This document shows positions 20,957 to 42,339 of a stretch of 48,180 bases of DNA, one piece after another. The notes under the pieces are model-generated. The model saw only the letters and a program-made list of their open reading frames with translations. It searched no databases and was not told the origin of the DNA. Where the stretch lies: the NCBI GenBank assembly GCA_020061705.1, contig JAGUXT010000052.1, positions 1 through 48,180 on the forward strand. Reading direction: 5' to 3'. Source of the stretch: Halothiobacillus sp. (GTDB taxonomy: Bacteria > Pseudomonadota > Gammaproteobacteria > Halothiobacillales > Halothiobacillaceae). The number at the start of each line of letters is the position of its first letter. Position 1 is the first letter of the stretch. Both the position numbers and the translations under genes were made by a program.

Positions 20957-21033
20957 GCGCCCGTAGCTCAGTTGGATAGAGTATCTGGCTACGAACCAGA
21001 GGGTCGGGCGTTCGAATCGCTCCGGGCGCACCA
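20957..21033 (+). tRNA. tRNA-Arg (ACG), integration site of element 1
   Basis: Acceptor stem GCGCCCG/CGGGCGC, anticodon ACG, T-loop TTCGAAT, encoded CCA at 21031-21033. It is cotranscribed with tRNA-Asn 14 bp upstream. Its 3' part from the anticodon stem onward is duplicated at 27310-27357, so the functional gene now carries an element-derived 3' end. Confidence 0.96.
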
Positions 21034-21036
21034 TAT
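20989..21036 (+). repeat. attL of element 1
   Basis: 48 bp running from the tRNA-Arg anticodon stem through CCA and TAT. It matches 27310-27357 except for C at 21005 versus A at 27326. Confidence 0.9.
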
Positions 21037-21088: not shown

Positions 21089-21114
21089 CCACGTGACCAC
21101 TCACGTGACCACTT
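21089..21114 (+). repeat. Left inner repeat of element 1 (putative integrase arm sites)
   Basis: 26 bp containing CACGTGACCACT in tandem. An identical 26-bp copy in the same orientation lies at 27167-27192, just upstream of the integrase. The rest of 21037-21423 holds only this repeat and the two terminators listed; I see no gene there. Confidence 0.75.
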
Positions 21115-21423: not shown

Positions 21424-21876
21424 TTAAATTCTGCGCTGGGTGTGTGGGTTAGGTTGCTGCGCATCCTCAAACGCACATGCGGCGCTGAATGCAAAGGTTG
21501 GCGGCTCACCCACTGCCACACGGTGAAGGAAGTTCTCAGCGCCTCCAGCCGTGCGAAGCAGGCAGGAATCAATCAAGCGGCCATTGTGCATATGCACTGC
21601 ACGGCTAGGCATGTCTTGGTCAATGCACCAGCCTTCGGGGTGGTGGGTGTCGTTGTTGCAATGTGCAGGCATTGTGCGCGGCAATGTGCAGTTGTCACTG
21701 GTAATGTGCGAATGTGCGTTCCTAGGGTCTGCACATTCGCACATTACACTTGACCGCTTCAAAACCGCGCCAGCAATGGCTTTCAGGCTGCCCGGCTTGG
21801 TGTTTTGTTCGGGGTAATGTGCGGGGTGTTTTTCGGTATTGTGCGCAGATTGTGCGGGGTAATGTGCGCGGCTCAT
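21424..21876 (-). CDS. Element 1 TubC-like C-terminal-domain protein with repeat-encoded N terminus
   Basis: 150 residues. The C-terminal half (HPEGWCIDQDMPSRAVH, DSCLLRTAGGAENFLHRV, ACAFEDA) is clearly homologous to the C-terminal half of the element 2 protein at 39539-39982. The N-terminal half is low-complexity (AHYPAQSAHNTEKHPAHYPEQ, CECADPRNAHSH) because it is the translation of the repeat array at 21660-21868. The TubC N-terminal docking-like segment present in the element 2 homologue is missing. The start overlaps the helicase stop by 4 bp. Function unknown; conserved position after the helicase suggests a role in replication or copy control. Confidence 0.65.
   Translation of the reverse strand: MSRAHYPAQSAHNTEKHPAHYPEQNTKPGSLKAIAGAVLKRSSVMCECADPRNAHSHITSDNCTLPRTMPAHCNNDTHHPEGWCIDQDMPSRAVHMHNGRLIDSCLLRTAGGAENFLHRVAVGEPPTFAFSAACAFEDAQQPNPHTQRRI
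21660..21868. repeat. Element 1 iteron array (putative origin)
   Basis: Eleven copies of the 8-mer A(A/T)TGTGC(A/G): forward at 21660, 21671, 21683, 21703, 21711, 21816, 21838, 21849 and 21861, reverse at 21730 and 21738. Two tandem forward copies and the two reverse copies make a perfect 17-bp inverted repeat (21701-21717 with 21731-21747, 13-nt loop). The array lies within the 5' half of the small gene after the helicase, a position typical of intragenic replication origins. Confidence 0.7.
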
Positions 21877-22865
21877 TCGTCACCCCCGGCTTTTTTGCGA
21901 GCGTCGGGCAGTCGAATCTTTTTCATGCGCTCAGCGTTGGCGCGGTCAACGGTGCGCTTGAGTTGAAAGCGTGAAAGACCTGTTTCATCTTCAATGTCTT
22001 TACGACTTACACCTTCATCAATCATTGCTTCGATGCGGCTAATGATGGAGGTCTCAGCCGTGCGCCATGTCCACTTGATACCGTCGCCCACAGATAGCAT
22101 TTCAATTTCAAGACTTTCGGCATCATCGCCGGTCAGGTTGCGCGCTTTCTCAAAGTGAAGTTCAAATGCCGCCCCCTGCTTAGCGTCGTAGTCTGGGGGG
22201 CGCTTGAGGCTGATAACGGTATCAAGAACGTCCTCACGACGGCTTGACCCACGTTGTTGGCCTCCCTTGCCGCTGTGGTGAATAAACAGCACGGCGCGGC
22301 CTTGGGCGCGGTGCTGGAGCGCCCACTGTTGGACGGGTAGCCAGCTCTCGCCTTCGTTCTCTTTGCCGCTCCGTGCCATTGTGGAAAGGTTGTCCACGAT
22401 GATTAGGTCGGCTTTGCGTGCATGAACATCAATCGCGGCCTGCCCTATCGGGTCGGACAAGTTGGGCATAATCCCGTCGCGCTGCATGTCCGGCGTGAGA
22501 ATCTGAAAATAATCAGCTTGCGGCGGCTCCTTGTCGAAGGATTTAACAATCATCGCCATGCGGTTTTGCAGGACGTTTGCGGGTAACTCACCGTCGATGT
22601 ACAGCACGCGGGCGGGTGCTGGTGCGTTCCATCGTAGCAGTGGGCTACCTGTCGCCACGGCATAGCCTATGGATAATGCGAGCCAGCTCTTACCGATTCC
22701 GCGCCATGCGTAGAGCATCGAAAGGCTTTGCTTGCTCAGAATCGGCTCTAGCAGCGGTTGGCGTGGCTCGATTTCCATCGCCAGCAGCTCACCTATGTTG
22801 ATGGAGGTTGCCGGACGTGGTGCTTCGGGTTGCTCCACTTCAACGATGGTATCAACTAGCGCCAT
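21873..22865 (-). CDS. RepA-like RecA-fold ATPase/helicase of element 1
   Basis: 330 residues of the AAA_25/RepA hexameric-helicase type. Walker A is YAWRGIGKSWLALS (about 52-65), Walker B DLIIVDNLSTMARSG, followed by the helicase H-motif AVLFIHHSGKGGQQRGSS, a pattern shared with RSF1010 RepA. A C-terminal helix-turn-helix-like segment (GVSRKDIEDETGLSRFQLKRTV) could bind DNA. It probably unwinds the element origin, which would be the repeat array starting at its 3' end. Its start overlaps the previous gene by 14 bp, and its stop overlaps the next start by 4 bp. It occupies the slot held by a DUF3631 helicase in element 2. Confidence 0.85.
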   Translation of the reverse strand: MALVDTIVEVEQPEAPRPATSINIGELLAMEIEPRQPLLEPILSKQSLSMLYAWRGIGKSWLALSIGYAVATGSPLLRWNAPAPARVLYIDGELPANVLQNRMAMIVKSFDKEPPQADYFQILTPDMQRDGIMPNLSDPIGQAAIDVHARKADLIIVDNLSTMARSGKENEGESWLPVQQWALQHRAQGRAVLFIHHSGKGGQQRGSSRREDVLDTVISLKRPPDYDAKQGAAFELHFEKARNLTGDDAESLEIEMLSVGDGIKWTWRTAETSIISRIEAMIDEGVSRKDIEDETGLSRFQLKRTVDRANAERMKKIRLPDARKKAGGDE

Positions 22866-23220
22866 GTGTCACCCCCTGCGCAACGAACAAGGCAGAACGG
22901 GCGGGCGGCTGGAGTACCAACACACGGCGCGCACCATCGCGCAAACAAGCTTTAGCGGTCGCTGCTAAATGCGCGTCACAGGCATTGCGGTTAATGACCA
23001 ACACGGGGGGCGTGGCGAGCTGGCACACGCTCCAGTCATAGGCGGTGGGGTCTTGGTCTTCCGGTGATAGCACGGCGGCGCGGGTGTCATTCTTCCATTC
23101 CCATGCGGCGCGGCCTGCGTGAATGAACAGTGTTCCAAACCCTGCAACCTTGTTGCGCATGTACTCCGACAAGCGGGCGCGTGCGGTGCGGCTGTAGGGT
23201 GGTTGTGCGCGGCAGTTCAT
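22852..23220 (-). CDS. Conserved protein shared by both elements, unknown function
   Basis: 122 residues. I do not recognise a named family. It is homologous to 41550-41978 in element 2: both contain RTARARL, a GFGTLF(I/V)HAGR segment, W-W-DTRAAVL-PE-QDP, DWSVC-LAT-PVL-INRNA and LRDGAR-VL. In both elements it lies directly upstream of the replicative helicase with overlapping start and stop codons. That fixed position suggests an initiator, loader or primase-accessory role, but no catalytic motif is evident. Soluble, no signal peptide. Confidence 0.75.
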   Translation of the reverse strand: MNCRAQPPYSRTARARLSEYMRNKVAGFGTLFIHAGRAAWEWKNDTRAAVLSPEDQDPTAYDWSVCQLATPPVLVINRNACDAHLAATAKACLRDGARRVLVLQPPARSALFVAQGVTHGAS

Positions 23221-23459
23221 AACTCACCACTCGATAGCAGCGTGTAGACCGCCACATTTTTGAACACGCGGCCTGTTGAATCTGTGGTGGTGGTGCGCCC
23301 TACGCTGATTTCATTGCCGCGCTTGCGTAGATCAAAAACTCTTGCCGCCGGGCAGAGAATGCCCAGCACTTCGATTGCGTAAACCGTTGATATTCCGTAA
23401 GGTTTAGCGGCAATGAGCGCGTCTAGCAAAATGGTTTTTTGGCAAGGTTGCTGCATCAT
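23217..23459 (-). CDS. Small winged-helix protein (HTH_39-like)
   Basis: 80 residues from the ATG at 23457-23459, which overlaps the alpA stop as ATGA; an upstream frame from 23495 is inside alpA. The sequence LDALIAAKPYGISTVYAIEVLGILCPAARVFDLRKRGNEI fits the phage helix-turn-helix family PF14090 (G-I-T--A----G-----R--DLRKRG--I). Such proteins sit in phage and satellite replication modules and probably regulate transcription. It has no counterpart in element 2. Confidence 0.75.
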   Translation of the reverse strand: MMQQPCQKTILLDALIAAKPYGISTVYAIEVLGILCPAARVFDLRKRGNEISVGRTTTTDSTGRVFKNVAVYTLLSSGEL

Positions 23460-23647
23460 GCGGCCTCCGCCTTGGGTTGGCGGCTCGCAAGCCATTGATT
23501 TATCTCGGCTTCACGCCATGCGCTTGCACGTTCAGAAAGTTTGACGGGGGCGGGGAATCGCCCAAGCTGGACAAGGCGATAGATGGAACTTCTGGATAGC
23601 GCGGTGCGCTCGATTACGGCGGGAAGGCGTAGTGCTTTGTTGGTCAT
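23456..23647 (-). CDS. AlpA-family MerR-like transcriptional activator
   Basis: 63 residues: MTNKALRLPAVIERTALSR then SSIYRLVQLGRFPAPVKLSERASAWREAEINQWLASR, the complete AlpA helix-turn-helix. AlpA proteins of P4-like elements activate excision or replication genes. It shares its first 13 residues and the core helix with 41975-42214 in element 2. It heads the replication operon, with overlapping genes downstream. An inverted repeat overlaps its start codon (23647-23678), implying translational or autoregulatory control. Confidence 0.9.
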   Translation of the reverse strand: MTNKALRLPAVIERTALSRSSIYRLVQLGRFPAPVKLSERASAWREAEINQWLASRQPKAEAA

Positions 23648-25836: not shown

Positions 25837-27135
25837 TTAGGCCGCTTTGAAGCTGGCATGAATGACGTTATCTGCCTTGCCATACAGCAGCGCGTCAAGA
25901 TGCGCACCCAATCGCCGCCATGCCTCCCGGCGTTCGGCTTTGAGTTCGTGCCGCTGATAGGTGCGTTTGAGTTTGTTGGCTTCGACGTGGTTTAAGCATT
26001 TTTCGACGATCTCGGACAATATGCCAAGCTCCCCCATAAGGGTTGCACCTGTGCGGCGCAGGTCGTGTGCCGTCCATCCACCGCCGGGCAGAGTCAGCGC
26101 CCCCAAACCTCTCAGGCTGCGATTGCTCAGCGCGGTGTCGCGTTGACGGTCTTTGATCTGTTTGCTGATTGAGCGCAAACAGATATGCGTGTCGGTGGTG
26201 CGTGTTGACGGATAACACCATGCGCTCCAGCCGGTCAGCGTGCGCAATTCTTCAAAGTGTCGCGCCGCAAACTCCGACAAGAAGATGGTGTGCTCCTTCG
26301 CGTTCTTCGAGTTCCCGGCGGGGATTGTCCATGTCCCGGCGTTGAAGTCGATATGCTCCCAGCGGGCTTGTGTTAGTTCACCCACGCGGGCAAGGGTGGA
26401 AAGCATCAACCAGATTGCAAGCTCGGTGGTGCGCTCCATGTGGGCGGCTGGGAGTTGGTCGCGTAACTGTTTGAGTTCGTCATTGCTCAGGACGCGCTCA
26501 CGTTCGGGTTGTGTGCCGCCTACGTCGGTTTTCTTCAATCCGCGCAATGGATGCTTTGTGATTAGGTCGCGCGCCTCACACCAGTTAAAGAACTGTCGCA
26601 GGTCGCCAAAGATGTGGTTAGCCAGTACCTTAGCGCCGCGCTTTTTGACCCGGTCGAGAATGTTCAACAGGTCGGCTTTGCTGATTGCTCCAAGCTCCTT
26701 GTCAGCAAGGTGTGGCATCACGTCCTTGGAAAATGTGCGCATCGTTTCCTTGCCGCCATCCTTGCGGCCACTGAGTGAAAGCTCAAACCATTCTTCAACG
26801 GTCGCACCGAAGATGCGACGGCTTTCACGTTCGATGCGTGCGGCCTCTTCTTGGCGTGCCAGCGCTTCGGCTTCAGTCTTGGCATGGGTCAGCGGGCAGA
26901 TACCGCCATCAAGGTGCTTGCGGGCTTCGGCGGCCTTGGTGCGTGCTTCTTTCAGTGTGACGTGTTCGTAACTCCCCAAAGGCATAACCCGGCGCTTGCC
27001 ATCGAATTGATAGCGGAATTGCCATGCACGCTTTCCGCTGGGGTAGATGCGAAGCTGCAAGCCTTCACCGTCGATCAAGAACACGTCCTTGTCACCCGGT
27101 TGTGCGGCTTCAATTTGTTTGACTGTTAGCCCCAT
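25837..27135 (-). CDS. Tyrosine integrase of element 1
   Basis: The true start is the ATG at 27133-27135 (MGLTVKQIEAAQPGDK) with AGAGGG upstream; the open frame to 27234 would translate the 26-bp arm repeat and is rejected. About 432 residues. The N-terminal DUF4102 arm-binding domain (LIDGEGLQLRIYPSGKRAWQFRYQ) precedes the catalytic domain, with Arg in RVGELTQARWEHID, HDLRR in the box II position and the nucleophile in LKRTYQRHEL. It is a P4-type integrase, and its tRNA-Arg target is visible in the flanking repeats. The C terminus NVIHASFKAA is nearly the same as that of the element 2 integrase. Confidence 0.93.
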   Translation of the reverse strand: MGLTVKQIEAAQPGDKDVFLIDGEGLQLRIYPSGKRAWQFRYQFDGKRRVMPLGSYEHVTLKEARTKAAEARKHLDGGICPLTHAKTEAEALARQEEAARIERESRRIFGATVEEWFELSLSGRKDGGKETMRTFSKDVMPHLADKELGAISKADLLNILDRVKKRGAKVLANHIFGDLRQFFNWCEARDLITKHPLRGLKKTDVGGTQPERERVLSNDELKQLRDQLPAAHMERTTELAIWLMLSTLARVGELTQARWEHIDFNAGTWTIPAGNSKNAKEHTIFLSEFAARHFEELRTLTGWSAWCYPSTRTTDTHICLRSISKQIKDRQRDTALSNRSLRGLGALTLPGGGWTAHDLRRTGATLMGELGILSEIVEKCLNHVEANKLKRTYQRHELKAERREAWRRLGAHLDALLYGKADNVIHASFKAA

Positions 27136-27166
27136 GTCCAACCCTCTGTCTGAATCATGCCAATTT

Positions 27167-27192
27167 CCACGTGACCACTCACGTGACCACTT
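27167..27192 (+). repeat. Right inner repeat of element 1 (putative integrase arm sites)
   Basis: Identical to 21089-21114, with two tandem CACGTGACCACT units, located 32 bp upstream of the integrase start. Binding there could both assemble the recombination complex and repress the integrase. Confidence 0.75.
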
Positions 27193-27309
27193 TATCTTGG
27201 CTGTAATGATACAGCGCAGGACGCTATAAAACACTAATTACATGAATATCAGCATGTTAGTTGATGTGGTGGGATGGTGTGCAACACTATAAAACATGCA
27301 AATAACTAA

Positions 27310-27357
27310 CTACGAACCAGAGGGTAGGGCGTTCGAATCGCTCCGGGCGCACCATAT
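27310..27357 (+). repeat. attR of element 1
   Basis: Copy of the tRNA-Arg 3' portion, 47 of 48 bases matching 20989-21036. It lacks the 5' half of the tRNA, so it is not a functional gene. Confidence 0.9.
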
Positions 27358-29593: not shown

Positions 29594-30387
29594 GGCCGGT
29601 GCTGTCCGGGGGGGGCTTGGTGTGTTACGCCATTATCGAGGAAGCCGTATTTACGAAATATCGCCTGACCTTCAGCGCTTGTGGCGTACGTCATGAACTT
29701 TCGCGCGAGATCCGGGTGTTTAGAAAAAACCAGTTGGTTGAGCAATAATGCCTCGGGCTTGGCCAATTTTGGGTCGAGGTCGATGACATCGACAATGGGT
29801 ATGTTGTCGGGAAAGAAACCCACCGCGCGCCAATTGAGAATAATGTCGGCCTCACCTTTTTTCATCGCAGTGATTAGGGCGCGTGAATCGGGCGCCAGAT
29901 AGATTGCCCGATCCAGCACCTGTTCATAAATCCCAAGGGTCTTGAGAATTTTTTCGGTTTCACTGCCGACGCTTCCCGATTTGGCATTGCCGATGATGAC
30001 ATCCAAATCCGGACGCAGCAGTTCAGATGGTTCACCCTTGACAGCACGCGGATTACCTTTGGCGACCATGATAGCCATGCGGTTGTAGCCTACGGTGACG
30101 ACATCGCCGAGCAATCCCTCGGGAAGATAAAGATCGCGGTAGGTCGGTTCTCCAGGTAAATAAAGATCCCCCACCTTGCTTTGCTTGGCGCTTTGGTAGA
30201 GATCCTCTGAGCCGCCTTGTGAAATTCTGACTTTGACGTGCTCGGCTTTTTCGAAGTTTTGCGCGATTTCGCTAATGGGGCGAACCATGGTAATGCCGCA
30301 GTAAATGAGCAGTTCAGTGTCTTCGGCATGTGTGGGGGCGCAGACCATTGCCAGGAGGAGTGCGCTCAAGCGGAGTAACAGTGACAT
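29590..30387 (-). CDS. Periplasmic substrate-binding protein (molybdate/phosphate-type), partner of the GGDEF-EAL protein
   Basis: 265 residues with a signal peptide (hydrophobic core 3-16, cleavage near THA-ED). The mature part is a type II solute-binding fold: LLIYCGITMVRPISEIAQNFEKAEHVKVRISQGGSEDL, GDLYLPGEPTYRD, VTVGYNRMAIMVAKGNP, ADIILNWRA and the C-terminal ATSAEGQAIFRKYGF seen in ModA/PstS-like proteins. No ABC permease or ATPase genes are adjacent. Instead it is translationally coupled to the c-di-GMP enzyme, an arrangement suggesting a sensory rather than transport role. Ligand unknown; an oxyanion is plausible from the family. Confidence 0.85.
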   Translation of the reverse strand: MSLLLRLSALLLAMVCAPTHAEDTELLIYCGITMVRPISEIAQNFEKAEHVKVRISQGGSEDLYQSAKQSKVGDLYLPGEPTYRDLYLPEGLLGDVVTVGYNRMAIMVAKGNPRAVKGEPSELLRPDLDVIIGNAKSGSVGSETEKILKTLGIYEQVLDRAIYLAPDSRALITAMKKGEADIILNWRAVGFFPDNIPIVDVIDLDPKLAKPEALLLNQLVFSKHPDLARKFMTYATSAEGQAIFRKYGFLDNGVTHQAPPGQHRP

Positions 30388-30691
30388 ACGGGCAACCTCC
30401 CTGATGAATCAAGCACTAAACAGAAGCCATTGCGCGGCTTGCACAACGCTACAATCGCAAAAGCCAGTACCCAACAGCTCAGTGCCCTGTTCTGCTTGCC
30501 AAAGGATGCATTTTATGCAATCTCACGCTACTTCTAGGGAAAATATAGCACGAGAAGGATGTGTAGATGTGCGCCGGCAAAGCTTGGGGATGTGAGTTTG
30601 TTTTTGCTGGATTCAAATTTGTTATGCCAAATTGTTGGTCTATTGGTTTACCTTTACCTGGACTTTTTACACCTAGTCAGAGGCGTTCACT
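30388..30691. other. 304-bp intergenic region between divergent genes
   Basis: Separates the leftward binding-protein operon from the rightward hydrolase gene, so it must hold two promoters. I can see AT-rich stretches but no convincing -35/-10 pair, and only a short TGCAT/ATGCA inverted repeat near 30510-30523. No coding frame of quality. Confidence 0.4.
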
Positions 30692-31618
30692 ATGTTTTCA
30701 AAGCAGCGTTATTCCGGGCTTCAACGTTCAGTGATTTCGGCGTTCATGCTTTTATTGGTCTTGTTGTCGGCTCCTGTGTACGCAGAAGAAGTCATTACCA
30801 AACTGAATGATTTGACCTTGCGGGGTAATCTCGAGCTTGCGGCAGGCAAGACGATGAAGGATGGCGTGGTGCTGATTACCCACGGCACCTTGGCTCACAA
30901 CAGCATGGAGCTTATCAAGTCCCTGCAAAGCGGCTTGCAGGCCAAGGGCTACAACTCGCTGGCGATCAACCTGGGCCTGGGACTGGATAAGCGTGCATCG
31001 TCGATGTACGACTGCCCGACACCGCATGTACACAAGCATACTGATGCGGTGAGTGAAATCGCCGCCTGGACGAAGTGGCTCAAGGACAAGGGGGCGACGC
31101 GCATTGCCTTGATGGGGCATTCTCGCGGTGGCAATCAGACGGCCTGGGCGCTGGCGGAAAAGGATGATGCGGCGATTACTTCGGCCATTCTGATTGCGCC
31201 GCAGACCTGGGAAGCGGGCTATCACCTCAAGGATTACAAGGATAAGTACAAGGCGGATTTGGCACCGCTTTTGGCCAAGGCCGAAAAGCTGGTGGCCGAA
31301 GGCAAGGGTGACACCTTGATCGACATGGACTTTATCTACTGCGAGAAGACCCGTGCGGCGGCCAAGAGCGTGGTCAGCTATTACAAGGAAGACCCGCGCA
31401 TGGACACGCCAACCTTGCTGGCACAAACCAAAAAGCCTCTGCTGGTGATTATCGGCTCGGCAGATACCACGGTGAAGGGTTTGCCGGAAAAGATGGCCAA
31501 AGCCGCCGATGGCAAGCGCATCAAGGCGCATACGGTCGAGGGCGCAGATCACTTCTTCATGGATTTGTATACGGATGAAGTCGTCGAAGAGACGGCGAAA
31601 TTCCTCAGCTGGAAATAA
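30692..31618 (+). CDS. Secreted alpha/beta hydrolase
   Basis: 308 residues with a signal peptide (cleavage near VYA-EE, about residue 31). The alpha/beta hydrolase elements are VVLITHGTLAHNSME (oxyanion region), the nucleophile elbow GHSRGG with Ser144, an acid in IIGSADTTVKG, and the late HFFMD that should supply His. It probably acts in the periplasm on an unknown ester or peptide. AGAGG lies eight bases before the ATG. It is monocistronic: a terminator follows and the next gene has its own leader. Confidence 0.82.
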   Translation: MFSKQRYSGLQRSVISAFMLLLVLLSAPVYAEEVITKLNDLTLRGNLELAAGKTMKDGVVLITHGTLAHNSMELIKSLQSGLQAKGYNSLAINLGLGLDKRASSMYDCPTPHVHKHTDAVSEIAAWTKWLKDKGATRIALMGHSRGGNQTAWALAEKDDAAITSAILIAPQTWEAGYHLKDYKDKYKADLAPLLAKAEKLVAEGKGDTLIDMDFIYCEKTRAAAKSVVSYYKEDPRMDTPTLLAQTKKPLLVIIGSADTTVKGLPEKMAKAADGKRIKAHTVEGADHFFMDLYTDEVVEETAKFLSWK

Positions 31619-31679
31619 GTTGTTCTGTGATTTGAGTCATATTATTTGATCTATATGTCGCTTGATTCATAACACCATG

Positions 31680-31707
31680 CACCCTCGGCCATGCCGGGGG
31701 TTTTTGT
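31680..31707 (+). terminator. Terminator after the hydrolase gene
   Basis: ACCCTCGG paired with CCGGGGGT (one mismatch) around CCATG, followed by TTTTTG. Confidence 0.65.
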
Positions 31708-31751
31708 TTGCGGTAAACTGCGCGCATTCTTTCATTCAACCCGTTTCCCAT

Positions 31752-31790
31752 GCCCGGTTATGCCGGGTGTTCATTTTTTAGACGATGTGA
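31752..31790 (+). promoter_or_regulatory. Hairpin plus T-run in the glyA leader
   Basis: CCCGG/CCGGG with a 5-nt loop, followed by TGTTCATTTTTT, lies about 25 bp before the glyA ATG. It has the form of a weak terminator and may act as a leader attenuator; no antiterminator or known riboswitch fold is evident. Confidence 0.4.
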
Positions 31791-31800
31791 GGTGCGCCCT

Positions 31801-33066
31801 ATGTTTACCCGTGACATGACCATTGCTGGCTATGACGATCAACTCGCGCAGGCGATGGCGCAGGAAGTTGTGCGTCAGGAAGAGCACATTGAGCTGATCG
31901 CCTCCGAAAACTATGCCAGCCCGCGCGTGATGGAAGCGCAAGGCTCGGTATTGACCAATAAATATGCCGAAGGTTATCCCGGCAAGCGTTATTACGGCGG
32001 TTGCGAGTACGTCGATGTGGTTGAGCAGCTTGCCATTGACCGCGTCAAGGAACTGTTCGGTGCCGATTGGGCGAATGTGCAGCCGCATTCCGGTTCGCAG
32101 GCCAATGGCGCGGTGTTTCTGGCTTTGTTGCAAGCTGGCGATACCGTGCTGGGCATGTCGTTGGCGCATGGCGGTCACTTGACCCACGGTGCCAAGCCCA
32201 ACTTTTCCGGCAAAAGCTATAACGCGGTGCAGTACGGTCTGGTGCCGGAAACAGGCGAGATTGACTACGACCAAGTGGATGCTTTGGCGCGTGAACACAA
32301 GCCGAAGCTGATTATTGCGGGCTTTTCAGCCTATTCCCGCGTGATCGACTGGGCGCGTTTCCGTGCGATTGCCGATGAAGTCGGTGCGTATTTCCTGGTG
32401 GATATGGCGCATGTGGCCGGTCTGGTGGCGGCGGGTGTCTATCCCAACCCGGTGCCGTTTGCCGATGTGGTCACATCCACTACGCACAAGACCCTGCGCG
32501 GCCCGCGTGGCGGCATTATCCTCGGCAAGGTAGGTGCCGGTATTACGGCTGAGATCGAGAAAAAGATCAACTCGGCGATTTTCCCCGGTATTCAGGGCGG
32601 CCCGCTGGAGCATGTGATTGCCGCCAAGGCGGTGGCTTTCAAGGAAGCGCTGGAGCCTGCGTTCAAGACCTATCAGCAGCAGGTCGTCACCAACGCCCGC
32701 GCCATGGCGGCGCTGTTTATGGCGCGCGGGTTTGATGTGATTTCCAAGGGCACGGATAACCACCTGTTCCTGGTGAGCTTTATTGCACAAGGTTTGACCG
32801 GCAAGGATGTGGATGCCTGGCTGGGTGCCGCGAATATCACCGTGAACAAGAACGCCGTACCGAATGACCCGCAATCACCGTTTGTGACATCCGGTATCCG
32901 TATCGGCACCCCGGCGATCACCACACGCGGCTTCGGCGAGGCCGAGTGCGTGGCACTGGCGGGCTGGATTTGCGATGTGATCGATGCCAAGGGCGACGCG
33001 GCAACCATCGACGCGGTGAAGGGCAAAGTGCTTGAAGTGTGCAAGCGTTTGCCGGTGTATGCCTGA
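31801..33066 (+). CDS. glyA: Serine hydroxymethyltransferase
   Basis: 421 residues from the ATG at 31801 ([14 protein letters not shown]), preceded by GAGGTG; an upstream in-frame ATG at 31750 lies in the leader hairpin and is rejected. It interconverts serine and glycine with tetrahydrofolate. Motifs: [36 protein letters not shown], and the PLP lysine in [15 protein letters not shown]. It heads a run with the lipoprotein gene (overlapping), nrdR, the NnrS gene and ribD. Confidence 0.97.
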
Positions 33067-33284
33067 TGCGTGGGTTTTCCGGTGCGCTGACTGGCTGCGC
33101 CGGGCTGCTCCTTTATTTGTTATGTTCAGGCTGCTCGGTGCAGCAAGGCTATGCTGGTGCACAGAATTTCCAGCGTAACCAGTGCTTGCAGAATCCAGAT
33201 ATTTCGGCGCGTGAGGCCTGTCTTGGTGGCTCGGATCGCTCCTATGCGGAGTATACGAAGGATGTCCAAGGCAGCACACGCTAA
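33066..33284 (+). CDS. Small putative lipoprotein
   Basis: 72 residues starting with the ATG that overlaps the glyA stop (TGATG). A hydrophobic leader (GALTGCAGLLLYLLCSGC) ends in a lipobox-like CSGC, so the mature chain would begin with a lipidated Cys. Four more cysteines are not evident beyond two (NQCLQNP, EACLGG), which may form a disulfide. Function unknown. The peptide includes QCLQ-P--SAREACL, a pattern seen in short proteobacterial outer-membrane lipoproteins. Confidence 0.6.
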   Translation: MRGFSGALTGCAGLLLYLLCSGCSVQQGYAGAQNFQRNQCLQNPDISAREACLGGSDRSYAEYTKDVQGSTR

Positions 33285-33323
33285 CGATTTTGGGCGTCTG
33301 TTTTGGCGCCGGGGGATGAATGG

Positions 33324-33788
33324 ATGAAATGTCCTTTTTGCGGTGCGGACGATACCCGCGTGGCCGATTCGCGCTTGACGCAGGATGGCACTCAGGTGCG
33401 TCGTCGGCGCGAATGTCCGACCTGTGGCGAGCGCTTCACCACCTTTGAAACCGCTGAATTGCAGTTGCCGCGCATTATCAAGCGCGACGGCACGCGCGAG
33501 CTGTTTTCGCAGGACAAACTGCGTCGCGGCATGTTGCGCGCCTTGGAAAAACGCCCGGTGCCGACCGAGCGGGTGGAAGAGGCCGTGGCGCATATCGAGC
33601 GCGAATTGATGAAGCGTGGCGAGCGTGAAGTCGAGGCGCGCCTGCTGGGCGAGATGGTGATGGACGCTCTGCGTAAACTCGATCAGGTGGCCTACATTCG
33701 CTTCGCTTCGGTTTACAAAAGCTTTGAAGATGTAGCCGCTTTTCGTGAACTGATCGAACGTTTGCAGCAGGAGCCGCGTGGTTCTTAA
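33324..33788 (+). CDS. nrdR: Transcriptional repressor NrdR
   Basis: 154 residues, standard length. The zinc ribbon uses C3, C6, C31 and C34 ([20 protein letters not shown]). The ATP-cone domain follows ([31 protein letters not shown]). It senses ATP/dATP and represses ribonucleotide reductase genes. The start at 33324 is the family start; the longer frame from 33303 is rejected. Position between glyA and ribD is typical of gamma/betaproteobacteria. Confidence 0.96.
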
Positions 33789-33808
33789 ATCTGTCCAAGG
33801 AGTTCGGC

Positions 33809-34981
33809 ATGTTTATCCGTGACCCCAATGCTCCCACTCCCAAGGGCTTTGCCCTGTTCAATCTGGGCTTTCGGGCGTTTTTTTTCGGTGCGTCGCTTTG
33901 GGCGGTGTTGGCGATGTTGCTGTGGGGGTTGGCGTTTACCGCACTTATTCCGGCCAGCGTTGCATCCGTCTCCTGGCATGGTCACGAGATGTTGTTTGGC
34001 TATGCACAGGCTGTTGTTGCTGGCTTTCTGCTGACGGCCGCGCGTAACTGGAGCGGGGTGCGCACGCCGCAAGGTTGGGCGCTGGGCGGCTTGTTTGCGC
34101 TGTGGCTGATTCCGCGTGTGTTTTTGCCTTGGGCAAGCAGCGCGATGTTGCCTTGGCTTGCTTTGGCTGATGTAGTGTTCGATCTATTCTTGGCGGCGAT
34201 TTTGGCGCTCACCTTGTGGCGTAATCGCGCCAATCTGTTCATCTTCCCGCCGTTGTTGCTGCTGGTTGCCCTGGCGAATGCGGCATGGTGGCTGGCTACG
34301 CTTGGTCTGTGGTCACAGGGTCATGTTTTTGGATTGGTGTTGGGACAAGGGGCGCTGCTCGGCATCGTGCTGATTATGGGTGTGCGTGTCGCACCTTTTT
34401 TTATTGAAAAACGTTTGAATGTGTCGATCACAGCGCGCGTCCCGGTGTGGGTGTATCGAAGCGGGGCGGCGTTGTACGGGCTTTTGGTGGTTGCGGAGCT
34501 GTTGGGCGCGCCGTGGTTGCAAGCCGTCATGGCGGCTGCGCTGGCGGCGTTGAGCGCTTGGGTGTTGTGGCGCTGGTATGCCCCTGGCTTGTGGCGCGAG
34601 CCGCTGTTGTGGATTTTGTGGCTGGCCGGGGGGTGGTTGGTGCTCGGTTTGGTGCTCAAGGCGCTGGGCGATCCGGGCGGTGTGGCGCGCCATGCTCTGT
34701 TGGTCGGCGGCGTGGGGCTGGCCAGCCTCGGCATGATGGCGCGGGTGAGTCTCGGTCATTGTGGGTATGTGGTTTACCCCGCGCCGCGTGGCAGTGTGCT
34801 CGCCTTTGTCCTGCTGCTGATGGCGGCACTGTTGCGTGTGGTTCCGCCGCTGTTTTCGCCCGCCGCACTTGCTTGGGCAGTGCCGCTGTCGGCGTTGTTG
34901 TGGGTGCTGGCCTTTGCGCTATTTTTGGTCGTGTATGCGCCGATGCTTTGGCGGCCTCGTGTCGATGGCAAACCGGGGTAA
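33809..34981 (+). CDS. NnrS-family membrane protein
   Basis: 390 residues with about twelve membrane helices. Family marks are the N-terminal FALFNLGFRAFFFGA and SWHGHEMLFGYAQAVVAGFLLTA, with histidines that bind heme/copper in NnrS. It protects against nitrosative stress in denitrifiers and related bacteria. It is inserted between nrdR and ribD, an unusual neighbour that breaks the common nrdR-ribD adjacency. An AAGGAG lies upstream of the ATG. Its 3' end overlaps the probable ribD start. Confidence 0.9.
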   Translation: MFIRDPNAPTPKGFALFNLGFRAFFFGASLWAVLAMLLWGLAFTALIPASVASVSWHGHEMLFGYAQAVVAGFLLTAARNWSGVRTPQGWALGGLFALWLIPRVFLPWASSAMLPWLALADVVFDLFLAAILALTLWRNRANLFIFPPLLLLVALANAAWWLATLGLWSQGHVFGLVLGQGALLGIVLIMGVRVAPFFIEKRLNVSITARVPVWVYRSGAALYGLLVVAELLGAPWLQAVMAAALAALSAWVLWRWYAPGLWREPLLWILWLAGGWLVLGLVLKALGDPGGVARHALLVGGVGLASLGMMARVSLGHCGYVVYPAPRGSVLAFVLLLMAALLRVVPPLFSPAALAWAVPLSALLWVLAFALFLVVYAPMLWRPRVDGKPG

Positions 34982-36098
34982 GCAGGTGAGTGACGATCTC
35001 CGCTTTATGGCGCGCGCGCTGGAACTGGCGCGGCGCGGGCTTTACACCACCCACCCCAATCCGCGTGTCGGTTGCGTCATCGTGCGTGATGGCGAAGTCG
35101 TCGGTGAGGGTTTTCATGCACGGGCGGGCGAGCCACATGCAGAGATTCACGCCCTGCGCATGGCCGGTGAGCGGGCGCGGGGGGCGACGGCCTATGTCAC
35201 GCTGGAACCCTGTTGTCATCATGGGCGCACGCCGCCGTGTTCGGATGCCTTGATTGCAGCCGGGGTGGTGCGCGTGGTGGCGGCAATGCGTGACCCCAAT
35301 CCGCGTGTTGATGGCGGCGGTGAAGCGGTGCTGTGTGCGGCGGGTGTTGCGGTCGAAAGCGGACTTTTGGAAGCTGAAGCACGTGAGCTGAACGCGGGCT
35401 TTAGCAAGCGCATGACGCTGGGTTTGCCTTTCGTGCGCCTGAAGTGGGGCGCTTCGCTTGATGGGCGCACGGCGCTGGCGAATGGTCAAAGCCAGTGGAT
35501 TACCGGTGAGCAAGCGCGGCGCGATGTGCAATTTTGGCGCGCGCGTTCGTCCGCCATATTAAGCAGTGCAGCAAGCGTCATTGCCGATCAGGCGCGCCTG
35601 AATGTGCGATTAACGGCGGATGAATTGGGTATTGAGGGTCATGTACACCAGCCGGTGCGAGTTATTCTTGACCGCGAGCTACGCATGACCCCGGATCTGC
35701 CGATTTTTGACGGGCAGGGTGATATTTGGATTTATACCGCCGCGCCGGATGTGCCGTACCGGGATGCACTGCTCGCAACGGGGGCGAAGATTTTGGCGGC
35801 TCCCGCGAACGGGCATGGCTTGGATTTGGCTTTCATTCTGCGTGATTTGGCGCAACGTGAAATCAACGAGCTGTGGATTGAAACCGGCGCACGCTTGGGT
35901 GGTGCTTTTTTGGCGCAGGGCTTGGTGGATGAATTGATTGTTTACCTTGCGCCAATGCTGCTCGGTCACACCGCACGTCCACTTGCGGAATTACCTGAAA
36001 TAACACAGCTCAATCAGGCTCAGCGCTGGCAATGGCAGGATGTCACCCGCGTTGGTGATGATTTGCGCCTGGTTTTGAGGAGTGCGCAGAACGCTTGA
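34965..36098 (+). CDS. ribD: Bifunctional riboflavin biosynthesis deaminase/reductase RibD
   Basis: 377 residues from the ATG at 34965; a GTG at 34986 with GGGG seven bases upstream is an equally good start, giving 370 residues. The open frame back to 34836 is a shadow of the NnrS gene. The N-terminal deaminase has the zinc site HAE (58-60) and PCCHHGRTPPC (C83, C92). The C-terminal reductase begins near RLKWGASLDGRTALANGQSQWIT and has the NADPH segment ELWIETGARLGGAFL. It catalyses steps two and three of riboflavin synthesis. ribE and ribBA do not follow, because the gene is cut off downstream by element 2. Confidence 0.95.
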   Translation: MANRGKQVSDDLRFMARALELARRGLYTTHPNPRVGCVIVRDGEVVGEGFHARAGEPHAEIHALRMAGERARGATAYVTLEPCCHHGRTPPCSDALIAAGVVRVVAAMRDPNPRVDGGGEAVLCAAGVAVESGLLEAEARELNAGFSKRMTLGLPFVRLKWGASLDGRTALANGQSQWITGEQARRDVQFWRARSSAILSSAASVIADQARLNVRLTADELGIEGHVHQPVRVILDRELRMTPDLPIFDGQGDIWIYTAAPDVPYRDALLATGAKILAAPANGHGLDLAFILRDLAQREINELWIETGARLGGAFLAQGLVDELIVYLAPMLLGHTARPLAELPEITQLNQAQRWQWQDVTRVGDDLRLVLRSAQNA

Positions 36099-36124
36099 GC
36101 GTGTGCGCTTTTGTGAGCAACAAA

Positions 36125-36150
36125 AAAGCCGCACAAGGCGGCTTTGATTT
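36125..36150 (+). terminator. Terminator after ribD
   Basis: AAAGCCGC/GCGGCTTT, an 8-bp stem with a 5-nt loop, followed by GATTT; A-rich upstream side. The following 36146-36245 is host or junction DNA with no gene that I can see. Confidence 0.75.
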
Positions 36151-36249
36151 GGATTGATTTTTAGTAAAACTGAATTAAATCAATCAGTTATGTTATAGGT
36201 GCTATCACATCACTAGGCGGAATGCGGGTTGCGGCGTGTCGATTTCAGA

Positions 36250-36272
36250 TATACCCCCAAATATACCCCCAA
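36250..36272 (+). repeat. Left-end TATACCCCCAA repeats of element 2
   Basis: Two copies of TATACCCCCAA, 12 bp apart. Related repeats occur upstream of the integrase at 45138-45198. Candidate integrase arm-type sites. Confidence 0.6.
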
Positions 36273-36288
36273 AAAGTTACGCACAGGC

Positions 36289-36310
36289 TTATCCACATGA
36301 CTTATCCACA
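36289..36310 (+). promoter_or_regulatory. Pair of perfect DnaA boxes
   Basis: TTATCCACA at 36289-36297 and again at 36302-36310, same orientation, 13 bp start to start. Both match the high-affinity R-box exactly. Confidence 0.65.
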
Positions 36311-36410
36311 GACGTGATATTTTCAGCTTCACAGTCAGCGCGGGGCTTTTTATCTCAGTGGCATGAATCGCGCCTTAGCATAAAACATGCCACCTAGTTA
36401 AAAACGCCCG

Positions 36411-36467
36411 CTATATTTCGTTCGGAGCGGTCATTGCGGATTGGTCGCTGCATTCGATATTGATCAT
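36411..36467 (-). CDS. Possible 18-residue leader peptide
   Basis: A short frame MINIECSDQSAMTAPNEI preceded by AGGAG at a six-base distance. It lies just outside the closing stem of the structured RNA region. Good ribosome site but no homology that I can cite; it could be chance. Confidence 0.25.
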   Translation of the reverse strand: MINIECSDQSAMTAPNEI

Positions 36468-36481
36468 GGTATGCTCCTGAT

Positions 36482-36634
36482 TAGTTGGCGTGACACGGTG
36501 ATATTCTCCCGGCCGTAGCACCGCATTCGTGCGGGAGCGTCATGTGGGGTTTCCGGTGAAAACCGGGTGGGAGGCCTCGCCGCCAACTCAAGCTTCCCCC
36601 TTCTTCAGCAGTCGCTGTACCTCACGCTCCCGCA
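36482..36634 (+). ncRNA. Structured RNA resembling phage C4 / P4 CI antisense RNA
   Basis: An 8-bp closing stem (36483-36490 with 36581-36588, AGTTGGCG/CGCCAACT) encloses two perfect hairpins: CCGCA-TTCG-TGCGG at 36521-36534 and CCGGT-GAAA-ACCGG at 36553-36566. UUCG and GNRA loops favour the plus strand. An extended -10 (TGGTATGCT, 36467-36475) would start transcription at about 36482, the foot of the stem. The 11-mer at 36530-36540 is exactly complementary to 36624-36634, as expected of an antisense RNA acting on a target in the same transcript. C4 RNAs regulate phage antirepressor genes; the class assignment is by analogy. Confidence 0.45.
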
Positions 36635-36654
36635 TGTCCTAAACATCGCAGACA

Positions 36655-36680
36655 ACAAAAAACCCGGCACATGGCCGGGC
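36655..36680 (-). terminator. Terminator of the element 2 operon
   Basis: CCCGGC/GCCGGG with a 5-nt loop (36663-36679), followed on the minus strand by TTTTTTGTT. It lies just after the Mor-type gene and ends the long leftward operon. Confidence 0.8.
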
Positions 36681-36709
36681 TGGGTTGGTGGGTACGTGGT
36701 GGGGGCGGT

Positions 36710-37123
36710 CTAAAGTGGGTTGGCTGCTTTCATTGCCTTGCCCCTTTGCAGGTAGTACAAAACTTGCCGTCTTGATTGCCGCGTGGCTTCCACCATTTCA
36801 TCTATGCTCTTTCCCTTGCGCCTCAAGTCCATGATGAAGCGCACGTTAGCTTTAGATATGGCCTGCTTGCATGTGGGAATTTCAATGTATGTTCCCCCAT
36901 ACATACCAATCATCTTTAGGGCGGCATCCTCCCCAGCAACGGCGGCGATTGCCTCAAACTTTTGCCGCCCCCCTTGCTCGTTGTCAGTCCCAAGCGGGAC
37001 GTGAATCCGCCTCCCGCAAAATGCTTCTTGCAGCTTCATAGCCGCTTCATAGCCTATTTGGCTAATCAGATACTTTAGGCTTTCCGGCAAGTCACCTTCT
37101 TGAACGTCTCGAATCCCAATCAT
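36710..37123 (-). CDS. Mor-type (Mu middle operon regulator) transcription activator
   Basis: 137 residues with the Mor/C fold: LPESLKYLISQIGYEAAMKLQEAFCGRRIHVPLG, then the intercalating beta strand region GGTYIEIPTCKQAISKANVRFI and a C-terminal helix-turn-helix (KGKSIDEMVEATRQSRRQVLYYLQRG). Mor activates middle or late phage promoters. It is the last gene of the element 2 operon and overlaps the previous gene by 4 bp. In an element without late genes, the target may be a helper-phage or self promoter. Confidence 0.85.
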   Translation of the reverse strand: MIGIRDVQEGDLPESLKYLISQIGYEAAMKLQEAFCGRRIHVPLGTDNEQGGRQKFEAIAAVAGEDAALKMIGMYGGTYIEIPTCKQAISKANVRFIMDLRRKGKSIDEMVEATRQSRRQVLYYLQRGKAMKAANPL

Positions 37124-37479
37124 CGCGCCCCCCTTATTTGTTCTACTTGCTTGGCTAGCTTTTCCAATTCGCGCATACCTTCAAAAAACTTAACTAGGTG
37201 TAGCGCCTCCATGCTCTCCATCTCGCCATTTATCACCCTTTTGGTGACTTCGCTTATTAGCTCTGTCATTGTCTGGCTGCTTATCGGCGGCCTCTCATTC
37301 ACGGCTGAAAGCGCAGGCAATGAGCGGTCTAGCAACAGCTTGGCGGCTTGCACGTCACCCGCTAAAGCCATTTCGTAGAGTTTGGCAAGGATAGGGGGCA
37401 GGGCGCGCCTGATTGCCGTCCTTAGCTTTTGGGTATCGCTGGCATTGACTGCCATGTTTTTGCTGATACCCCTAGCCAT
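37120..37479 (-). CDS. Phage-type small hypothetical protein
   Basis: 119 residues from the ATG at 37477-37479 (MARGISKNMAVNASD). The longer frame from 37500 lies inside the RuvC-like gene. Helical: LRTAIRRALPPILAKLYEMALAGDVQAAKLLLDRSLPAL resembles the DNA-binding/oligomerisation segment of small phage proteins of the DUF5681 type. The C-terminal 30 residues form an amphipathic helix. Function unknown. Overlaps both neighbours. Confidence 0.6.
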   Translation of the reverse strand: MARGISKNMAVNASDTQKLRTAIRRALPPILAKLYEMALAGDVQAAKLLLDRSLPALSAVNERPPISSQTMTELISEVTKRVINGEMESMEALHLVKFFEGMRELEKLAKQVEQIRGAR

Positions 37480-37954
37480 GCCGCGCCCCCCACGATGCAA
37501 TCAGCACAGCGTCACCACGATCATGACGCGCCTGCTTGCCTTGGAGGAATGGCCGGGCGGTTGGGTGGAGTCGAACAGCAGCGGCTAGGCTGGCATTCTT
37601 TTCTGCACCTGCTGCGATTCCTGCCAGCCGTCGCCATGCGATAGGCGAGATGCGCATCATGGGTAGATGTGCCGCTGTCACCAAAGCCTCGATAGCGCCT
37701 ATGTTGCGACCGAAGGTATGCGCTCCCGTCTTGGAGTCAGTGGGTCGTGCACCAACAAGCTCAACAGCAACCAGGCGGGGGGTGGGGTGTGTGTTGAGTA
37801 GCTCCATGAAGCTCACAGCGTCAACGGATTTACGTTTGCCTTCAAGCTCAACAGGCAGGTCGGCCACGTCCAACACCTCGCCTGTGCTGGCATCCATCCA
37901 ACACAGCGCACCAGCTAGGCCGGGGTCAATGCCCAACACAACGGCGGCGGTCAT
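37472..37954 (-). CDS. RuvC-like Holliday junction resolvase
   Basis: 160 residues with the RNase H-like fold of phage RuvC-type nucleases: VLGIDPGLAGAL (catalytic D10), VAVELVGARP (catalytic Glu), and HDRGDAVLIASWGARHG (C-terminal catalytic Asp). It probably resolves branched DNA during element replication or recombination. The start overlaps the stop of the 37951-38193 gene by 4 bp. It is slightly shorter than cellular RuvC, as phage versions usually are. Confidence 0.82.
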   Translation of the reverse strand: MTAAVVLGIDPGLAGALCWMDASTGEVLDVADLPVELEGKRKSVDAVSFMELLNTHPTPRLVAVELVGARPTDSKTGAHTFGRNIGAIEALVTAAHLPMMRISPIAWRRLAGIAAGAEKNASLAAAVRLHPTARPFLQGKQARHDRGDAVLIASWGARHG

Positions 37955-38193
37955 GTTGCCACCTCCGACTCGTTGTCACTGGTGGCATCCAACACGGTCA
38001 CGCCAGCAAGCATGTGCTCCACCACTTCCAGCGAGTGCGCCGGGCGGCATGACATGGTTTCACGCGCCACACGTCGCAATGCCTGTGCTTGGCTGGTGGC
38101 TTTGACAAGGCGGATTGGAGCAAAGCCGCTTTTTTGCATAAAGCCGGTATCGTCCTGCATGACAACGTAAATCCGAGTGCTTGACTTCTTCAT
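37951..38193 (-). CDS. Hypothetical protein of element 2
   Basis: 80 residues beginning MKKSSTRIYVVMQDDTGF. The middle (PIRLVKATSQAQALRRVARETMSCRPA) resembles small phage proteins that modulate host functions, but I cannot assign a family. Overlaps both neighbours by 4 bp, so it is real operon content. Confidence 0.55.
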   Translation of the reverse strand: MKKSSTRIYVVMQDDTGFMQKSGFAPIRLVKATSQAQALRRVARETMSCRPAHSLEVVEHMLAGVTVLDATSDNESEVAT

Positions 38194-38909
38194 GCTGCAT
38201 CCTCCATCACGGCATCCTCATAGACCATGCGCAGCCAGCAAGCGCGTGTGGCCACCACGTCGCGCATGTTGTACTCAGCAATCTGCGCATACTCTCCGGC
38301 CTGCCACATATCGAACACATGACCGCCATCCATGCCCATTGCTTTAGGTGACGGAATGCCCAAGGCCTTACACAGACGGTCTAGGCTGATTCGCTGCCCG
38401 TACCCTGCCCACATGGTCATTGTGTCGCCATAGTCGCGCCCAAGGCGGGCTGCGGGGCTTGGGATGAATGACGGCGGGATGATGTTATGCACCCATGCAC
38501 GCCGACGGATAAACCCTAAATCGAAGTCGATAGAGTGGCCGATAACGTAGCTGGGTTCAGGGAACTCCGGGCGGCTATTGATGCGCTCAAATTCATCAAA
38601 GGCCGTGCGCATCTTGTCGAATGCGAACTCCAAAAACACTGCTTCGTCCTGTTCAAGCGGTCGGACAATCACGGCGGGCGGATTGGTATCCATCGCCCAA
38701 GCAATCGACACAATTTCACCCTCAGCCGCGTCTAGTGCCTGTTTGCGGTAAGCGTCCTCAGCGGCCTGCTCCCCCTGTTCTGCCCACCATGCAGCAATCG
38801 TGTCCTCCTTCTTGTAGTTGCCGGGCGGCTTGATACCCGCTTTGGCGGCTTCACGCGCGCCGGGTTGTTGGCTGGGTATAGTTTCAATATCTAGGTAAAT
38901 TCTTGGCAT
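38190..38909 (-). CDS. DEDDy 3'-5' exonuclease (PolB-exonuclease-like)
   Basis: 239 residues. Exo I is IYLDIETIP with D7 and E9, Exo II is YVIGHSIDFDLGFIRRRA, and Exo III is AQIAEYNMRDVVATRACW with the Tyr and Asp of the DEDDy class. This matches the family of predicted 3'-5' exonucleases related to the DNA polymerase B exonuclease domain, common in phages. It probably trims 3' ends in replication or annealing. Twelve bases separate it from the SSB-like gene upstream. Confidence 0.82.
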   Translation of the reverse strand: MPRIYLDIETIPSQQPGAREAAKAGIKPPGNYKKEDTIAAWWAEQGEQAAEDAYRKQALDAAEGEIVSIAWAMDTNPPAVIVRPLEQDEAVFLEFAFDKMRTAFDEFERINSRPEFPEPSYVIGHSIDFDLGFIRRRAWVHNIIPPSFIPSPAARLGRDYGDTMTMWAGYGQRISLDRLCKALGIPSPKAMGMDGGHVFDMWQAGEYAQIAEYNMRDVVATRACWLRMVYEDAVMEDAA

Positions 38910-38921
38910 GGTGTTGTCTCC

Positions 38922-39542
38922 TTAAAATCCAATGTCATCATCAAACGCTTCACCGTTGGCGGGTGACGTGGGTGCGGGTTTGGGTTTGTCAGGTTCGCCC
39001 CATCCTTGTGCCGCCTGATATTCCGGTGACGCTGCAATGGTGGCTTGGAGGCGTTCTCCGAGCGTGTCGTAGATGTTCCAATCGGGTTTGCTCAAGTCAA
39101 AGAGCTGCAACTCGTTCACGCCTTCGGGCTTGGGCATTCCCTTTGGCAGTGGCATGACCGAAGCAATGTTCATGTACGTTTTGCCGTCGCGCTCGCTCTC
39201 GGTGGCGTTCAACAAGCACGACGCGCCCAGCAGTTTCTTCACGTCATATCCTGCGCGAATCTCATCTTCACTTAACGCGCGACCGCGCCATTGATTGATA
39301 AAGGCGCGTAAGGCTGCTTTTTCTCCGAGTGACGCTGTGAAGCGGCGGCTGATTGTGAACGGCTTACCGTCCTGCATACGTTCATCACCCAACAATTCAA
39401 AGCTCAATAGCAGCTTGCGCGCCTTGGTCGGCTTGCCTTGGTAATCGCCTGTTTGCGTGCCTAAATCAACCAGGCGGTACAGGCGGGCGGTGTGAACTCC
39501 GGCGGGTGCTGATTCAAATGTCTGGGATGCTGAAATAATCAT
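38922..39542 (-). CDS. Putative phage single-stranded-DNA-binding protein
   Basis: 206 residues. An N-terminal beta-rich part (HTARLYRLVDLGTQTGDYQGKPTKARKLLLSFELLGD) has the look of an OB-type fold found in phage proteins that coat single strands. The chain ends in a disordered Pro-rich linker and the acidic tip EAFDDDIGF, closely resembling the DDDIPF tail by which SSB recruits partner proteins. Placed between the TubC-like gene and the exonuclease. The assignment rests on the tail and context rather than on a recognised OB motif. Confidence 0.65.
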   Translation of the reverse strand: MIISASQTFESAPAGVHTARLYRLVDLGTQTGDYQGKPTKARKLLLSFELLGDERMQDGKPFTISRRFTASLGEKAALRAFINQWRGRALSEDEIRAGYDVKKLLGASCLLNATESERDGKTYMNIASVMPLPKGMPKPEGVNELQLFDLSKPDWNIYDTLGERLQATIAASPEYQAAQGWGEPDKPKPAPTSPANGEAFDDDIGF

Positions 39543-39982
39543 GATGCTGATTTCCTATGAGGTGGTTTGGCTTGGATTTTCTCGGTCTGGGTCTCGGTCT
39601 GGTTCGGTCGTAAATCGGTTTGGCTGGCATCCTCAAAGGCGCAAGCGGCATGAAAGGCAAGGGTTAGCGGCTCACCTGATTGAACTCTGTGCAGGAAGTT
39701 TTCACCGCCCCCAGCGGTGCGGAATAAGCAGCTATCAACCAAGTGACCGCTGCGCACATGAACGGCGCGGCTGGGTATATCCGGGTCAACACTCCAGCCC
39801 TCGGGGTGGCTGGTGTAATCGGCGGACACCAATCTTTTCAGCGCGGGCAAGTTGGCGCGGATGTTGGCGCGGTCGGGGTCTGTCAGACGATTGCCGGGCG
39901 CAACCAACAGGCGGCCATCCTCACCAAGCCGAACGTCAAAATCACGGTCATGAAGGTTTTGCAGCAGGGTGAAGGCAGTCAT
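39539..39982 (-). CDS. TubC-N-domain protein, homologue of the element 1 protein
   Basis: 147 residues. Residues 1-50 (TLLQNLHDRDFDVRLGEDGRLLVAPGNRLTDPDRANIRANLPALKRLV) match the TubC N-terminal docking-domain family, which here is a phage/plasmid accessory domain. The C-terminal half (HPEGWSVDPDIPSRAVH, DSCLFRTAGGGENFLHRV, ACAFEDA) is shared with 21424-21876 in element 1. The ATG overlaps the helicase stop (TAATG). Function unknown; it follows the helicase in both elements. Confidence 0.75.
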   Translation of the reverse strand: MTAFTLLQNLHDRDFDVRLGEDGRLLVAPGNRLTDPDRANIRANLPALKRLVSADYTSHPEGWSVDPDIPSRAVHVRSGHLVDSCLFRTAGGGENFLHRVQSGEPLTLAFHAACAFEDASQTDLRPNQTETQTEKIQAKPPHRKSAS

Positions 39983-42214: not shown

Positions 42215-42245
42215 TGCTGGCTGCTCTAGGAGTGAGTGCCAGCAA
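42214..42245 (-). promoter_or_regulatory. Inverted repeat covering the alpA ribosome site, element 2
   Basis: TTGCTGGC (42214-42221) and GCCAGCAA (42238-42245), 16 bp apart, identical in arms and spacing to element 1 although most of the loop bases differ. Conservation of arms but not loop argues for a selected RNA or protein-binding structure. Confidence 0.65.
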
Positions 42246-42339
42246 GGTTAGGGATTGAATTTCACCCTGTAACGGGCTTATTTTTGTGCAAAACGCACCC
42301 AAAAAAGGCCGGAATTGTTCGGGATTTAAGCATTTTTGC

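Follow-up and report, generated by a model that had tools for sequence, protein, structure and literature searches.

The window analysed here, a stretch of 48,180 nucleotides of Halothiobacillus sp. DNA (contig JAGUXT010000052.1, assembly GCA_020061705.1), carries a 6.3-kb element, E1, integrated at a tRNA-Arg gene, in which an array of short repeats (iterons) lies directly 3' of a gene encoding a helicase related to RepA of RSF1010. Very probably this helicase is an initiator that recruits itself to the DNA, the downstream array is the replication origin of E1, an activity that we infer from sequence comparisons, and E1 itself is a small tRNA-Arg-integrated element of a kind resembling phage-inducible chromosomal islands (PICIs). 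The array comprises copies of A(A/T)TGTGC(A/G), nine on the plus strand (at 21660, 21671, 21683, 21703, 21711, 21816, 21838, 21849, and 21861) and two on the minus strand (at 21731 and 21739), while a twelfth copy, ATTGTGCA, is located at 21583, just beyond the array limits. The arms of its core hairpin (21701-21717 and 21731-21747) enclose a 13-nt loop (21718-21730) that includes CCCTAGG and reads AGACCCTAGGAAC on the minus strand. The number and position of the eleven copies, as well as the perfect 17-bp hairpin, were recovered exactly as described in an earlier note on this DNA, and so was the location of the array in the first half of the gene following the RepA-like ATPase, the open reading frame (ORF) 21876-21424 on the minus strand. 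No other 7-mer array in the window is as dense, that of another element, E2, ranking second.

The 453-nt ORF contains 12 sites. In 2000 dinucleotide shuffles the mean was 0.5 and the highest count 4, and when the same protein was recoded at random with synonymous codons, 2000 trials gave at most 7 sites; the array is thus not a product of chance. That the repeats are merely a low-complexity coding feature, a peptide repeat (AHYP/AHC) devoid of any role at the DNA level, might be suspected from their location inside an ORF and from the repetitive N-terminal half of its translation; the copies are, however, present on both strands and in differing frames, and in relatives other repeats fill the same place, in some cases in the absence of such an ORF. 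Since both the recoding test and the relatives contradict it, this explanation retains hardly any probability.

The relatives, 80 genome loci and 29 viral loci, were gathered by a helicase profile blind to the repeats. Of 106 relatives, 77 have a significant repeat array in the 500 nt surrounding the helicase stop, the array sites clustering 0-280 nt past the stop, and in the control regions of the 106 loci, i.e., the upstream 500 nt and the inside of the gene, no array reached five copies. The earlier note had named a lack of conservation of the repeats among close relatives as the finding that would speak against it; the six nearest relatives (~60% identical) share the E1 repeat TGTGCG. Lineages differ in their repeats, among which TGTGCG, GTTGCG, GTTGCA, TGTCCC, TGTTCC, GTTTCC, TGTTTCA, GGTGCA, and others can be distinguished, and in most relatives the array opens with two direct iterons followed by a loop and two inverted iterons. 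The loop, mostly of 8-15 nt, has the consensus YYCCCTAGGGAA; CTA is present in 62 of 87 loops versus a mean of 13 for shuffled loops, and a hairpin score of at least 11 is reached by 55% of the loci versus 0.4% of the shuffles.

The protein encoded next to the array can be placed, on the grounds of profile and fold comparisons, among the RSF1010 RepA-like (SF4/RecA-fold) helicases, with helicase activity and a hexameric state being predicted. Its RecA-like ATPase core is homologous to the structures 1g8y and 1nlf (Protein Data Bank profile match to 1g8y, 2.7e-11), and the fold match to 1g8y gives Z 22.0 with a root-mean-square deviation of 3.0 over 230 residues; RSF1010 RepA is thus the nearest solved structure both by profile and by fold. 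At its C-terminus a three-helix helix-turn-helix (HTH) domain is predicted, the variation of which follows that of the iterons. With ATPase distance controlled, iteron distance correlates with HTH distance (partial Mantel r = 0.40, p = 0.0002), whereas with HTH distance controlled the correlation with ATPase distance vanishes (r = 0.03, p = 0.29); along the helicase, the HTH window correlates with the iterons at 0.454 and every other window at 0.262 or less. Co-variation is strongest at S298, R299, F300, K303, and R304, residues that border or belong to the predicted recognition helix. In the motif [N/H]-K-S-[N/T], helices with Asn as the fourth residue pair with GTTGCG and GTTGCA in a ratio of 15:0 and those with Thr in a ratio of 5:11 (Fisher p = 7e-5), the residues for such tests having been picked after the data were seen, while the Mantel test is global. 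On the ATPase tree both the fourth residue and the iteron class changed nine times, and the supported branches yield five independent pairs, of which 4.6 agree on average and none is opposed, a number of pairs insufficient by itself for significance at 0.05. Of 11 loci from new, previously unused genomes, the iteron class as read by us matched that of the nearest HTH in five, was one base off in three and wrong in two, and one locus had no array. This strong co-variation argues for the helicase C-terminal HTH as the putative determinant of iteron specificity.

Co-variation of this kind points to protein-DNA recognition and is silent on the process served, so the array could also be an operator at which the helicase HTH or another regulator controls expression or copy number rather than the start of replication, the more so as initiators often autoregulate as well. 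The array lies, however, past the start of the helicase gene and within the following ORF, the ATG of which overlaps with the stop codon of the helicase; an array is found upstream of the helicase in 0 of 106 loci, and no promoter or transcription terminator fitting above chance was found at the array. An operator is therefore regarded as unlikely. Still less probable is the binding of the repeats by a different protein (AlpA, HTH_39, or the protein encoded by the array itself), e.g., at an excision or partition site, the HTH correlation reflecting shared ancestry. Genes of AlpA and HTH_39 do belong to the same operon, and the ORF following the helicase has both a conserved peptide and constraint at the DNA level. 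Yet arrays are general, while near the helicase of the relatives AlpA was detected in only ~30 loci and HTH_39 in one (an integrase in ~46); with the ATPase controlled, it is the HTH alone that retains the correlation, which also holds in independent pairs, and the att sites lie away from the array.

The following course of events can be proposed for replication from the array as the origin. The HTH of the helicase would bind the A(A/T)TGTGC(A/G) iterons 3' of its own gene, and the hairpin, with its two direct and two inverted iterons around the CCCTAGG loop, would form the origin core, where the binding of helicase subunits in the two orientations would position hexamers and open the loop. 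Replication of excised E1 would then start with the host primase, and that of relatives with an element-encoded Toprim primase; in the relatives the gene upstream of the helicase often encodes a Toprim/CHC2-type primase, sometimes fused to it as read from the sequence. Several observations weigh against this proposal. By the simple test about a quarter of the relatives are array-free, although the hairpin persists in several of them; averaging the profile over the relatives reveals no AT-rich region for unwinding; and among the annotated genes of E1 neither a packaging gene (terS or capsid) nor a recognisable primase was found. Moreover, a few Thr helices pair with GTTGCG, and hence the recognition code does not reside in one residue.

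The principle itself is known. In the Rep protein of Staphylococcus aureus pathogenicity islands (SaPIs) and in Cch2 of staphylococcal cassette chromosome (SCC) elements, the C-terminal domain serves to recognise iterons that lie immediately 3' of the gene itself (PMC7581432). E1 shares with SaPI Rep/ori and SCCmec Cch2/ori the iterons directly 3' of the initiator helicase gene; the helicases of the latter, however, carry DUF927 or Primase_Cterm (D5-type) domains, while that of E1 combines an RSF1010-RepA/RecA-like core with a small HTH, and its origin core would consist of a hairpin of iterons, conserved in its loop and embedded in a coding ORF. In Gram-negative PICIs the origin is located 3' of rep, with two iteron sets around an AT-rich region (PMC6092414). 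E1 has the same order of int, alpA, rep, and a putative 3' origin in one direction, a specific att site, and two iteron sets, and both kinds of element know several allelic rep types; the AT-rich region between the sets and the primase and packaging genes are what sets the PICIs apart.

The IncQ (RSF1010) replicon, RepA-RepB'-RepC with oriV, resembles E1 in its helicase fold and in having iterons. RSF1010 RepA has no appended HTH, and a separate protein, RepC, binds the iterons. Furthermore, the iterons of IncQ are 20 bp long and located in an intergenic oriV, while those of E1 are 8 bp long and lie inside an ORF, and no RepC or RepB' primase genes were recognised around 21873-22865. IncQ oriV contains a conserved 15-mer with CCTAG (PMC7557826); in an IncQ2 plasmid (L212) it was read as CTGCGCCTAGTGGAG near position 3409 of the reverse complement. 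CCTAG, a short resemblance, is common to this 15-mer and the hairpin loop, and may be an opening or priming element of both IncQ oriV and E1-type loops. Finally, primase-RepA helicase-winged-helix fusions have been reported in mobile elements, with the C-terminal domain proposed to recognise the origin (PMC5862659); they share with E1 a RepA-type helicase with a C-terminal DNA-binding domain, but no iterons or origin were identified there and the primases are of the AEP (archaeo-eukaryotic primase) type. In the open-access literature searched no description was found of the RepA+HTH class, the CCCTAGG-loop iteron hairpin, the co-variation, or the embedded ORF; this type of helicase, the conserved loop of the hairpin, and the location of the putative origin within a conserved ORF seem not to have been described before. 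If correct, the proposal would extend self-recruiting initiator helicases from staphylococcal islands to the RSF1010-RepA fold, provide a testable recognition code for the origins of many integrated elements (in Proteobacteria, Desulfobacterota, Nitrospirota, and others), allow origins to be located from sequence alone, and explain how helicase and origin may be exchanged jointly without loss of compatibility.

Such an exchange is suggested by E2, the helicase of which belongs to a different Pfam family (DUF3631) and the helicase and array segment of which has no DNA similarity to that of E1; that the helicases and repeats of the two differ had been noted before. The DNA of the two elements is homologous upstream (22927-23213 in the 122-aa gene, and AlpA) and downstream (21456-21650) of the unrelated helicase and array segments, as would be expected if helicase and origin had been exchanged together. 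The earlier proposal that they were swapped as one cassette into a conserved chassis is thus supported as to the homologous flanks and the behaviour of helicase and array as a unit, and stays conditional as to origin activity; stepwise replacement is an alternative. We propose that helicase and origin, being contiguous and co-specific, move and diverge as one cassette. The two arrays are not strictly at matching sites, as had been claimed, that of E2 being inside the end of the helicase gene and not in the gene that follows. Nor does a TubC-like junction exist in E1: only the E2 post-helicase protein has a TubC-like N-terminal part (our own reading of the sequence, with no Pfam match), and the C-terminal domain is the sole part common to the E1 150-aa and E2 147-aa proteins. 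A search of the viral contigs yielded no relatives of the E2 helicase. Most of its relatives examined have enriched or visible repeats in the helicase 3' tail (judged partly by eye); the motifs vary, several end in CGGAT, and a TubC-like gene is next in most. Differing arrays are present in the 3' tails of seven DUF3631 helicase genes (L135, L136, L138, L139, L141, L142, and L143). DUF3631 can thus be considered a candidate second helicase family with helicase-linked arrays.

In 83 of 106 loci an ORF extends across the array, its start often being located at an ATGA overlap. Between the array halves the peptide SLKALAxKVLxRN is encoded in 55 of 108 loci and in none on the reverse strand. Its codons vary in a protein-like manner, yet their choice is strongly biased compared with that in the same helicase genes (z 4-10), and therefore the DNA of this segment is constrained as well. 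The codon pattern over the peptide in E1 and 54 related loci is AAAGCCTTRGC....AAGGTTTTRGAGCGC. A hairpin at the DNA or RNA level was sought in this segment, and the compensatory pairing was unconvincing. The post-helicase proteins gave no meaningful family in Pfam, PHROGs, or NCBIfam. A far-reaching and still tentative extension, which we consider possible rather than probable, is that these loci represent a widespread undescribed replicon class, in which RSF1010-type helicases would use an appended HTH for their own loading onto a cruciform of iterons, the conserved CCCTAGG loop would be the opening or priming site, the array-spanning ORF with its SLKALAxKVLxRN accessory peptide would be under dual protein and DNA selection, and a readable HTH-to-iteron code would drive replicon diversification and cassette exchange. 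The features of E1 and E2 are collected in Table 1.

Table 1. Location of the E1 features and of the E2 features compared with them (window positions).
Feature	Position	Strand	Remarks
RSF1010-RepA-like hexameric helicase (AAA_25), 330 aa, proposed self-recruiting initiator	21873-22865	-	Pfam PF13481, 2.3e-28
Predicted three-helix HTH, helicase C-terminus, residues 270-312; recognition helix 299-312	21930-22058	-	AlphaFold2 predicted local distance difference test (pLDDT) ~95
Iteron array (proposed origin of replication), 11 A(A/T)TGTGC(A/G) copies	21660-21868	both
Core hairpin: two direct iterons, 13-nt loop, two inverted iterons	21701-21747		arms 17 bp, perfect
Post-helicase ORF, 150 aa	21424-21876	-	array in 5' half; conserved C-terminal domain common to E2 in 3' half
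Conserved peptide SLKAIAGAVLKRS (family SLKALAxKVLxRN), encoded between array halves	21751-21789	-
Downstream chassis segment of E1	21456-21650	-	E2 39623-39816, 74% DNA identity
122-aa upstream chassis gene of E1	22852-23220	-	homologous to E2 41550-41978, 72% DNA identity over 22927-23213
HTH_39 winged-helix protein of E1	23217-23495	-
AlpA regulator of E1	23456-23647	-	Pfam PF05930, 3.8e-20
Tyrosine integrase of E1	25837-27234	-
E1 att repeat 1, 3' part of tRNA-Arg	20986-21036	+	48/51 identical to 27307-27357
E1 att repeat 2	27307-27357	+	51-bp match to 20986-21036
E2 DUF3631 helicase, comparison element	39982-41568	-
E2 array, GTTGCGGAT type, in 3' tail of E2 helicase gene	40040-40262	- (gene)	last ~280 nt

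The ends of E1 are marked by the 51-bp repeat of the 3' part of tRNA-Arg, and its genes, all on the minus strand, encode the integrase, a RelE/HTH pair, HicAB, a 248-aa protein, AlpA, HTH_39, the 122-aa protein, the AAA_25 helicase, and the 150-aa post-helicase protein. Two identical 24-bp copies of (CACGTGACCACT)x2 are present near both E1 ends (21090-21113 and 27168-27191) and are probably integrase arm-type sites. Among the viral relatives, a contig of 9.8 kb (L021) carries int, a Toprim primase gene, the helicase gene, an array of the GTTGCG class, and capsid-like and terminase genes, and can be considered a putative element similar to capsid-forming PICIs with the same helicase/array module as E1. 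A circular form was sought; the 47-bp terminal repeats of this contig are a tRNA 3' fragment and hence may correspond to att ends and not to a circle. Four other viral contigs (L022-L025) have the RepA+HTH helicase gene and an iteron hairpin, directly followed by what we read as an HK97-like capsid gene, with no SLKALA ORF. As regards E2, a tRNA-Met att repeat was not found in 30001-45300; ATATACCCCC repeats near both its ends (36249-36273 and 45189) are probably arm-type sites of its integrase. E2 also encodes a RuvC-like Holliday junction resolvase (37472-37954; phrog_1770, 6.9e-25).
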